Shown here: positions 15,732 through 46,077 of the stretch, in pieces
Numbering within the stretch: the stretch's first letter is position 1
How the letters are laid out: each line of letters opens with the position of its first letter
Origin: an uncultured Pelagibacteraceae bacterium
GTDB taxonomy: Bacteria > Pseudomonadota > Alphaproteobacteria > Pelagibacterales > Pelagibacteraceae
DNA length: 64,000 nucleotides
NCBI GenBank assembly: GCA_902556505.1
Contig: CACDWM010000002.1
Span: forward strand, 90,451-154,450
Direction of reading: 5' to 3'
Translations under genes and position numbers: made by a program
Notes under the pieces: generated by a model
Database searches by the model: none
What the model was told of the DNA's origin: nothing
Seen by the model: only the letters and a program-made list of their open reading frames with translations

Positions 15732-15950
15732 ATGAAAAAAATAAAAAAAATAAAAATTAAAATAAATGGTAAAATCAAATCTATAACTCAAAATTCTAAC
15801 CTTTTTATGGTGTTAAAAAATCTAAAAATACCATTAAATAAAGTAGCAATTGAGCTTAACGAAGAAATAGTAGATAAAAAAAAAATTAATAAAATAAAAT
15901 TAAATAAAAATGATAAAATTGAAATAGTTCATTTTATTGGAGGCGGTTAA
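15732..15950 (+). CDS. thiS: sulfur carrier protein ThiS
   Basis: The protein has 72 residues: a Lys-rich start, a ubiquitin-like fold, and the required terminal diglycine (IGGG at the end). ThiS is adenylylated and thiocarboxylated at its last glycine and gives sulfur to ThiG for thiazole synthesis. Its final codons GGA GGC GGT also form the ribosome binding site of thiG. No TPP riboswitch fits in the 16-base gap upstream. Confidence 0.9.
   Translation: MKKIKKIKIKINGKIKSITQNSNLFMVLKNLKIPLNKVAIELNEEIVDKKKINKIKLNKNDKIEIVHFIGGG
15939..15943 (+). promoter_or_regulatory. thiG ribosome binding site made from the thiS diglycine codons
   Basis: The sequence GGAGGCGGT encodes the last three glycines of ThiS. 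Its first five bases are a perfect Shine-Dalgarno core 8 bases before the TTG start of thiG. This decides the thiG start and implies translational coupling. Confidence 0.8.
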
Positions 15951-15951
15951 T

Positions 15952-42319: not shown

Positions 42320-43006
42320 TTATACTTTATTTTTATATTTTTCAGAAACAATTTGTGAAATAATAGATAATGCTATTTCAGATGGAGATTTTCCTCCTAA
42401 TTTAATACCAATTGGTCCATTAATTCTCTCTATATCTGTCTTTTTAAATTTAGCATCTATTAATCTTAAGCATCTTTTTTCGTGTGTTTTTTTACTTCCC
42501 AAAGCACCAATATAAAAAAATTTATTTTTTAATGCATAGTGTAAGGCGTCATCATCAATTTTTGGGTCATGAGTTAAAGCAACCAAAGCAGTCTTTGAAT
42601 TAGTTTCTATTTCATTAAAAGCTTCATTGGGCCATTTATTTATAACTTTTGTATTTGGAAACCTTTCTTTCGATGCAAAATATCCCCTAGGATCAATAAT
42701 AATAATCTCAAAATTTAAATTTTTTGCAAAATCAATTAAATGCATTGAAATATCGACTGCTCCTACAATGATTACTTTAATTGGATTTTTAAACGTTTGA
42801 ACAAATATTTCTGAATTTTCTATTATACAATTTTTGTTTGAATTAAATGTTTTTTCTATTTCATTAAAATATTTTGAAAATATTCCAGTAAGATTTATTC
42901 CAGGAATAAATATTTCACTATCCCCATTAATTAAATTTGTAATAAGTGCAAATTCTTTTTTTAAAGATTTATTTTTTAAAGTTTCTCTAATTATTTCTAT
43001 TTTCAT
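42320..43006 (-). CDS. XdhC-family maturation protein, Rossmann (C-terminal) half
   Basis: The protein has 228 residues. The second half is the XdhC NAD-binding-like domain: PIKVIIVGAVDISMHLIDFA, FEIIIIDPRGYFASKERFP, VALTHDPKIDDDALHYAL, FYIGALGSKKTHEKR, and INGPIGIKLGGKSPSEIALSI. XdhC-type proteins help sulfurate and insert the molybdenum cofactor into xanthine dehydrogenase or CoxL-type enzymes. It begins within the TAATG junction after the gene for the other half, so the two are translationally coupled. Confidence 0.88.
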   Translation of the reverse strand: MKIEIIRETLKNKSLKKEFALITNLINGDSEIFIPGINLTGIFSKYFNEIEKTFNSNKNCIIENSEIFVQTFKNPIKVIIVGAVDISMHLIDFAKNLNFEIIIIDPRGYFASKERFPNTKVINKWPNEAFNEIETNSKTALVALTHDPKIDDDALHYALKNKFFYIGALGSKKTHEKRCLRLIDAKFKKTDIERINGPIGIKLGGKSPSEIALSIISQIVSEKYKNKV

Positions 43007-43335
43007 TATTTAATTTCTTCAATATAAATTGAAATATCACCACCACAGGCCAAACCTATTTCCCATGCATTTTCATTGGAAACTTTAAAATCAATTTTTT
43101 TACAAACTTTTTTATTTTTCATTAATGATATACATTCTTCAATAACTTTAGCCTCTACACATCCCCCAGATACAGATCCTAAAAAATTTCCATCTTCACA
43201 TATTATCATCCTACTCCCTACTCCTAATGGTGATGAACCCCATGTTTGAATAACTGTTGCTAATGAAACTTTTTTATTATCTTTAATCCAATTATCAGCT
43301 TCTTCGAAAATTTTTTTTTCATTAAAATTAATCAT
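43006..43335 (-). CDS. XdhC/CoxI-family protein, N-terminal half
   Basis: The protein has 109 residues and consists only of the XdhC_CoxI domain: VSLATVIQTWGSSPLGVGSR, FLGSVSGGCVEAKVIEECI, and NAWEIGLACGGDISIYIEE. In most XdhC proteins this is fused to the Rossmann domain that here forms the next gene. The two halves are separate genes with overlapping stop and start. Its own start overlaps the msrQ stop by 4 bases, putting it in the msrP-msrQ-xdhC run. Confidence 0.87.
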   Translation of the reverse strand: MINFNEKKIFEEADNWIKDNKKVSLATVIQTWGSSPLGVGSRMIICEDGNFLGSVSGGCVEAKVIEECISLMKNKKVCKKIDFKVSNENAWEIGLACGGDISIYIEEIK

Positions 43336-44816: not shown

Positions 44817-45263
44817 TTAATTATTTAGAGATACTCCTTTCAACCACTGACTATCCTCATTTTCATAATGTTCTTTTTTCCAAATCGGAGATCTTTTTTT
44901 AATTTCTTCAATTATATATCTAGATAATACAAAAGCTTGATCCCTATGTTTGCAAGCTACACCAATAATGATGCTTTTTTCTTTTAAACCCACATATCCT
45001 TTAACATGCTCAATAAATACTGCTTTTTCTTTAATATTTAGCTTGTTATCAGCTTCTTTATAAATTTCTTCAAAACTTTTTATAACCATACTTTCTTTGG
45101 CATCATAGGTAATACCAGTAACTGTTTTATTTTCATTTAATTCTCTTACAGTCCCAACAAAATATATTACAGCACCAAATTTCGATTGATTTAAAAAATT
45201 TTCTGCTTTTGAAATTTCTATCTTCTCATTTTTTGAAGCATCAATAATTTTAGTATGTAGCAT
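44817..45263 (-). CDS. moaE: molybdopterin synthase large subunit MoaE
   Basis: The protein has 148 residues. Family blocks are GAVIYFVGTVRELNENKTVT, MVIKSFEEIYKEA, HVKGYVGLKEKSIIIGVACK, and IIEEIKKRSPIWKKEHYEN with the catalytic lysine region. MoaE with thiocarboxylated MoaD converts precursor Z to molybdopterin. The ATG overlaps the moaD stop (TAATG). Confidence 0.95.
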   Translation of the reverse strand: MLHTKIIDASKNEKIEISKAENFLNQSKFGAVIYFVGTVRELNENKTVTGITYDAKESMVIKSFEEIYKEADNKLNIKEKAVFIEHVKGYVGLKEKSIIIGVACKHRDQAFVLSRYIIEEIKKRSPIWKKEHYENEDSQWLKGVSLNN

Positions 45264-45532
45264 TAACCGCCTCCTATAGGAGGTATAATGCTAAAGTTTT
45301 GTTTTTTAACTATTTTATAATTGTCTGAGACAATTTTATCATCAGACGAACAAAAAGCAGATGATTTTATAATTTTTTTGAAAGTTTCATTCCCTTTAAA
45401 TTTAATATCAATAAACTCTATCATTTGGTTTCTAAGATCTTTTATTGAGGAATTTTCAATCAATTCAAAGTCTAAATGAGATTTTGTACTAAATTCTCTA
45501 GCTGCGCCAAATAGTTCAACTGATATTTTCAT
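45263..45532 (-). CDS. moaD: molybdopterin synthase sulfur carrier subunit MoaD
   Basis: The protein has 89 residues, ubiquitin-like, starting MKISVELFGAAREF and ending IPPIGGG; the terminal glycine carries the sulfur. It works with MoaE. The final codons GGA GGC GGT also serve as the ribosome binding site for moaE, the same arrangement as in thiS-thiG here. The start shares a base with the moaC stop. Confidence 0.93.
   Translation of the reverse strand: MKISVELFGAAREFSTKSHLDFELIENSSIKDLRNQMIEFIDIKFKGNETFKKIIKSSAFCSSDDKIVSDNYKIVKKQNFSIIPPIGGG
45270..45283 (-). promoter_or_regulatory. perfect palindrome containing the moaE ribosome binding site
   Basis: CCTCCTATAGGAGG is perfectly self-complementary. 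The GGAGG arm lies 6 bases before the moaE ATG and is within the MoaD glycine codons. The CCTCC arm could pair with it around a TATA loop and hide it until a ribosome finishes moaD. Confidence 0.7.
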
Positions 45533-46077
45533 TAAAAAATATTTTTTAAAAAATCTGGGAGACCATCAGGGTTTTTCCATAATCCACTTTTTCCACCTTC
45601 TTTAATTAATAATTTTACGTTACTAATTTTAAGATGTGGATTTACTATTTTGCTTAAATCATAAATTGTGATTAAGGCAGAGTTAACTCCCATTATAGCT
45701 TCCATTTCAACACCTGTTTTTGCTACTGCAGAAACTACGCAAAAAACTTCTAATGAACTGTCTAATTCATTCATAATTATTTTAGTAGCCGTGTGGTCAA
45801 TTGGAAGTGGGTGACATAGGGGAATAAGTTCACTTGTTTTTTTTACTCCCAACACAGCTGATACCTCGGCTAAAGTAATAGGATCTCCTTTGGGCATCTT
45901 CTTATTTCTAATTAGATCAAAAACCTCTTTTCCAACATAAATTTTACCTGAAGCAAGTGCTCTTCTAAAAGTTTCTTTTTTTGAAGAAACATCAACCATA
46001 TTGAAAGAGTTTTTTTGAAATATTTCTTTCGCCCAATCTTTAAGTTCTTCTTGATTTATAATTTTTAATTTTGACAT
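45532..46077 (-). CDS. moaC: cyclic pyranopterin monophosphate synthase MoaC
   Basis: The protein has 181 residues. The core NMVDVSSKKETFRRALASGK, ELIPLCHPLPIDHTATKI, VVSAVAKTGVEMEAIMGV, and SALITIYDLSK include the active-site histidine and lysine regions. It forms cPMP from the MoaA product. About 25 residues precede the usual family start. It shares overlapping stop/start bases with moaA and moaD. Confidence 0.95.
   Translation of the reverse strand: MSKLKIINQEELKDWAKEIFQKNSFNMVDVSSKKETFRRALASGKIYVGKEVFDLIRNKKMPKGDPITLAEVSAVLGVKKTSELIPLCHPLPIDHTATKIIMNELDSSLEVFCVVSAVAKTGVEMEAIMGVNSALITIYDLSKIVNPHLKISNVKLLIKEGGKSGLWKNPDGLPDFLKNIF

Follow-up and report, generated by a model that had tools for sequence, protein, structure and literature searches.

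Overlapping gene pairs are known to be coupled in translation through termination-reinitiation (Huber et al., 2019, PMC6728339; Huber et al., 2023, PMC10666635). In one of the two models proposed for coupling, a structure hiding the downstream ribosome-binding site (RBS) is opened by the upstream ribosome (PMC12548453), and phage f1 genes VII-IX represent an example of such RNA unfolding (reviewed in PMC12548453). Ribosome standby sites located beside a sequestered RBS have also been reported, e.g., in tisB (PMC7708055). Coupling need not mean 1:1 synthesis of the two products, as the rplJ-rplL coupling leads to a fivefold excess (cited in PMC10666635). Overlap coupling, RBS-hiding structures, and standby sites are all established, and the moaD-moaE junction analyzed here is at best another member. 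A literature search for moaD-moaE coupling retrieved no paper.

The junction is located in a 64-kb stretch of DNA, analyzed as a whole (hereinafter referred to as the window), from a SAR11 bacterium whose nearest named relatives are Pelagibacteraceae single-cell genomes. The genes on its minus strand include moaA, moaC, moaD, moaE, msrP, msrQ, and an xdhC-like pair. The moaD gene (45263..45532, minus strand), encoding the small sulfur-carrier subunit of molybdopterin synthase, was assigned on the basis of its open reading frame (89 aa, C-terminus ...SIIPPIGGG), its place between moaC and moaE, and the C-terminal PP-x-GG. The protein showed a weak match to Pfam ThiS/MoaD (PF02597; E 0.0037, under the cut-off), whereas aligned MoaD orthologues belonging to two further genera within the family passed this cut-off; SAR11 MoaD is divergent in this respect. 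The moaE gene (44817..45263, minus strand; 148 aa) matched Pfam MoaE (PF02391, E 8.5e-27). Its start codon (45263-45261) shares one base with the moaD stop codon, forming TAATG at 45265-45261, and this overlap was present in nearly all junctions of the genus, as is typical of termination-reinitiation pairs.

Several other features of this gene region were recorded. The moaA gene also ends in Gly-Gly codons, with a TAATG overlap into moaC. An XdhC-like maturation factor (42320-43335, minus strand) is split between two overlapping genes (228 and 109 aa), with matches to the C-terminal and N-terminal portions of NF045664. A moaE match was found in 34 of 101 genomes of the genus, and in 4 of the 16 that were at least 90% complete, so that molybdenum cofactor synthesis appears to be patchy in this SAR11 genus. 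In one close relative (L117, G291:C6:24070-24512), moaE was apparently broken near its 3' end, the match being split in two, with an in-frame stop in one of the parts.

The 3' codons of moaD read ...ATA CCT CCT ATA GGA GGC GGT TAA. The GGAGG formed by the Gly87-Gly88 codons (45270..45274, minus strand) lies 6 nt before the ATG and corresponds to the moaE Shine-Dalgarno (SD). It also constitutes the second arm of a perfect 14-base palindrome, CCTCCTATAGGAGG (45270..45283), which spans moaD codons 84-88; the first arm, CCTCC of Pro84-Pro85 (45279..45283, minus strand), pairs with the SD in predicted folds. The preliminary description had placed a palindrome in the last moaD codons, with the moaE SD as its second arm, and had stated that the thiS-thiG junction lacks the CCTCC arm. 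All three statements were borne out: thiS (15732-15950, plus strand) carries GGAGG at 15939-15943 and no CCTCC arm. In E. coli (L217), GGAGG is likewise found in the moaD Gly-Gly codons directly before moaE (GGAGGTTAAGATGG). An identical run of 13 bases, GGAGGCGGTTAAT, ends both thiS (15939-15951, plus strand) and moaD (45262-45274, minus strand), and in each of these two genes for sulfur carriers, the Gly-Gly-Gly codons serve as the ribosome site for the gene that follows.

The palindrome itself is weak evidence, and its significance depends on the null chosen. Against shuffled DNA, CCTCCTATAGGAGG was conspicuous, being the sole match in the window at up to 2 mismatches with 0.04 expected by chance. 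Since proline codons are CCN and glycine codons GGN, Pro-Pro-x-Gly-Gly by itself determines four of the five pairs in the stem. Given PPIGG and the codon use of the genome (a table derived from the 64-kb window of this one genome), the probability of a perfect 14-nt palindrome was 0.17 and that of a 5-bp stem 0.40. Pairing of the SD was similar to that in synonymous recodings with the three glycine codons held (percentile about 0.5), the natural level being reached in approximately 50% of them. The CCTCC/GGAGG palindrome is thus largely a by-product of Pro-Pro-Ile-Gly-Gly.

Comparison among relatives led to the same view of the CCTCC arm. The preliminary description had named synonymous changes in relatives that break the pairing as evidence against its hairpin. 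No such changes were found in the close clade (63 genomes), where every hairpin pair was kept: the four synonymous changes at Pro85 fell on a wobble base in the loop, the two at Gly88 on an unpaired wobble base, and the single change at Gly87 yielded a U-G pair. Such changes did occur elsewhere, with CCA, CCC, and CCG all seen opposite GGA in the rest of the genus. Of the 71 distinct junctions of the genus outside the close clade, 31 retained the Pro84-Gly87 wobble pair, near the expectation from codon use, as did 1 of 24 junctions from other genera. A tree of 81 genomes, from which the close clade was excluded, gave 24 synonymous changes at Pro84 (15.2 expected) and only 7 at Gly87 (15.3 expected), under half the expected number. 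Some genomes were present in two collections, which is harmless for such tree counts. GGA was the Gly87 codon in 64 of the 71 distinct junctions, compared with a codon use of 43%. The depletion at Gly87 and the enrichment at Pro84 indicate that outside the close clade the SD is under selection and the CCTCC arm is not. As a selected hairpin, the palindrome was ruled out there by the codon-use null and the Pro84 changes; Pro-Pro dictates its first arm, and the device suggested in the preliminary description was not supported in this form. No usable compensatory changes were found among the relatives, and the stems have no compensatory support because the paired bases hardly vary. In a neighboring genus (g3; L177, L182, L190, L193, L194, and L196), the TAATG overlap was kept and the first glycine codon was GGC, meaning that the strong GGAGG site has been lost or shifted there.

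An outer stem, absent from the preliminary description, was identified around the palindrome. Its 5' arm, TAGCATTA (45286..45293, minus strand), extends from the wobble base of moaD Phe80 to the first base of Ile83, and its 3' arm, TAATGCTA (45258..45265, minus strand), consists of the moaD stop and the moaE ATG-CTA, so that the start codon is buried. The two arms are complementary at 8 of 8 bases. Folding predicted at 37°C, for an organism that lives in cold water, joins them with the inner stem into one two-part hairpin (-15.6 kcal/mol) in which the SD and the AUG are both hidden. The predicted hairpin persisted in a 200-nt folding context, and the folding check suggested in the preliminary description gave a structure over the moaE ribosome site. 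The predicted unpaired probability of the moaE AUG was 0.004, the lowest of the 64 gene starts called in the window by a simple script, and that of the SD was 0.13, consistent with an RBS-hiding structure of the kind invoked in unfolding-dependent coupling.

Burial of the AUG to this level was reached by 1.4% of synonymous recodings. Genus-wide, it exceeded that of recodings (mean percentile 0.35, p 0.006, 30 clusters; 0.38, p 0.03, 30 clusters, in a longer context), while no excess of SD burial was observed over the genus (percentile 0.50) and no AUG burial beyond recodings in other genera of the family (mean percentile 0.47). The larger outer-stem structure, unlike the bare palindrome, is above chance. 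The p-values for the outer stem and for the silent conservation described below serve as guides only, because these features were found by looking and several windows and groupings were examined.

One possible reading, which we hold to be doubtful, is that the protein code and a good SD suffice, that the overlap acts by plain termination-reinitiation, and that the inner and outer hairpins are both incidental. It would explain much of the structure: the inner stem is expected from PPIGG, SD pairing is typical of recodings, and the outer-stem core AUUA/UAAU, present in most relatives, follows from the Ile-Ile codons and the TAATG overlap; coupling is also known at junctions without structure (PMC12548453). 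It accounts less well for AUG burial, which is rare among recodings and skewed in the genus, and for AGC and CTA, two codons that contribute to the stem, account for 5% of Ser and 10% of Leu codons, respectively, and were unchanged throughout the close clade.

Synonymous change was depleted at the 3' end of moaD, in a block of codons 63-82 (45287..45346, minus strand) that was recognized in the close clade, the sister clade, and the rest of the genus. Among the 63 close relatives, codons 71-84 showed 0 synonymous changes, although about 29 were expected by amino acid. The lowest of about 1,490 windows of the close clade fell here, with a value matched by 0/1000 permutations when pooled and by 1/1000 when permuted within genes. 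The preliminary description had not mentioned this conservation. In the sister clade (22 genomes), codons 69-82 formed the lowest window, with 5 synonymous changes against 27.5, and Ile83, Pro84, and Gly87 varied freely. The same codons were again lowest in the rest of the genus (ratio 0.58-0.61; permutation 65/2000, or 38/2000 with a 20-codon window), and with the close clade excluded, codons 80-82 of the genus had 20 synonymous changes against 39.1. The milder depletion in the sister clade and the genus does not extend to the CCTCC arm. When the sister clade was first grouped broadly, no depletion was seen over the last codons, whereas tighter grouping and a window that stopped short of the CCTCC arm revealed one, and the result thus depends on grouping and window. 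The position of the lowest windows in the sister clade and the genus places the center of the constraint just upstream of the palindrome, with the 5' arm of the outer stem included. The start of moaE was also low in synonymous change. This conservation pattern indicates that the moaD end carries some nucleotide-level function beyond the protein.

SAR11 bacteria recombine often, and a recent sweep or local gene conversion across the close clade could lower synonymous change with no functional constraint; the nonsynonymous change in the block was likewise low. We regard this explanation as improbable, given that the same block was lowest again both in the separate sister clade and across the remainder of the genus.

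The depletion reaches about 40-50 nt upstream of the hairpin, so that the hairpin alone does not account for it. The block may instead represent a separate cis element beside the hairpin, such as a protein-binding site, a small-RNA target, an RNA processing site, or a promoter of moaE-msrP-msrQ. We consider this unlikely, though its location, which in two clades and the rest of the genus is for the most part 5' to the palindrome, would be consistent with it, as would the 7-bp inverted repeat AATTGTC-TGA-GACAATT (45319..45335) found inside the block in the close clade. Against it, an Rfam covariance-model search of 44900-45700 gave no match up to E 1, no internal sigma-70-like promoter was identified on that strand within the block, and the inverted repeat was missing from the sister clades and from the rest of the window.

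Other candidates were considered for this region. The AATTGTC-N3-GACAATT repeat was rejected as an operator-like element, as it occurs in a single copy in the window, and an upstream GTCTGA/TCAGAC hairpin was rejected as part of the element, as changes occur freely in its first arm (7 at codon 62). Besides moaD, no long open frame was found over the block that could represent an overlapping reading frame.

Within the block, an A-rich stretch at moaD codons 72-79 (45296..45319, minus strand) was predicted to be single-stranded and is a candidate standby site. Genus-wide, it was predicted to be more unpaired than in recodings (mean percentile 0.69, p 0.0016, 30 clusters), and it was slightly A-richer (p 0.014). 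In the prediction, a single-stranded stretch is thus present near a sequestered RBS, as in tisB. Unlike the tisB site, located at a distance of 100 nt, it is embedded in a gene that is itself translated, some 33-56 nt upstream of the AUG.

The reading that we consider fairly probable is that of ordinary translational coupling at an overlapping junction, which in this clade would be reinforced by a hairpin over the start codon, preceded by an open A-rich stretch. With the moaE ribosome site written in the essential Gly-Gly codons of the moaD end, most translation of moaE is probably carried out by ribosomes coming straight from moaD, via termination-reinitiation or unfolding. The 8-bp outer stem would probably lower independent initiation at moaE and so tighten the coupling, and the open A-rich stretch may aid ribosome landing. 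The junction resembles termination-reinitiation pairs in its one-base stop-start overlap, in encoding subunits of one complex, and in having the SD within the upstream gene; it differs from that model in the predicted start-codon hairpin, and the coupling is read from sequence here. As in RNA-unfolding coupling, the predicted hairpin covers the SD and AUG and is built from the end of the upstream gene. In this case the structure is a predicted one, and the moaD stop lies inside the stem, so that a ribosome halted at the TAA would itself cover the hairpin. Equal MoaD and MoaE output, as proposed in the preliminary description, does not follow from coupling alone.

More tentatively, the last 60-80 nt of SAR11 moaD may form a selected cis-acting RNA element that sets the subunit ratio of molybdopterin synthase. 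Such an element could possibly combine an open, A-rich stretch for landing with a downstream stem over the moaE start, the hairpin part being strongest in one clade; we put this proposal forward with reserve.

These results show that the essential C-terminal Gly-Gly of a protein can double as the ribosome site of the next gene, and they also serve as a warning that Pro-Pro-x-Gly-Gly, as a protein sequence, already leads one to expect a palindrome in its codons. What was not expected is that part of moaD is nearly without silent change, in genomes that have been little studied for coupling or RNA control. This stretch offers a precisely defined target for reporters and for probing of RNA structure.
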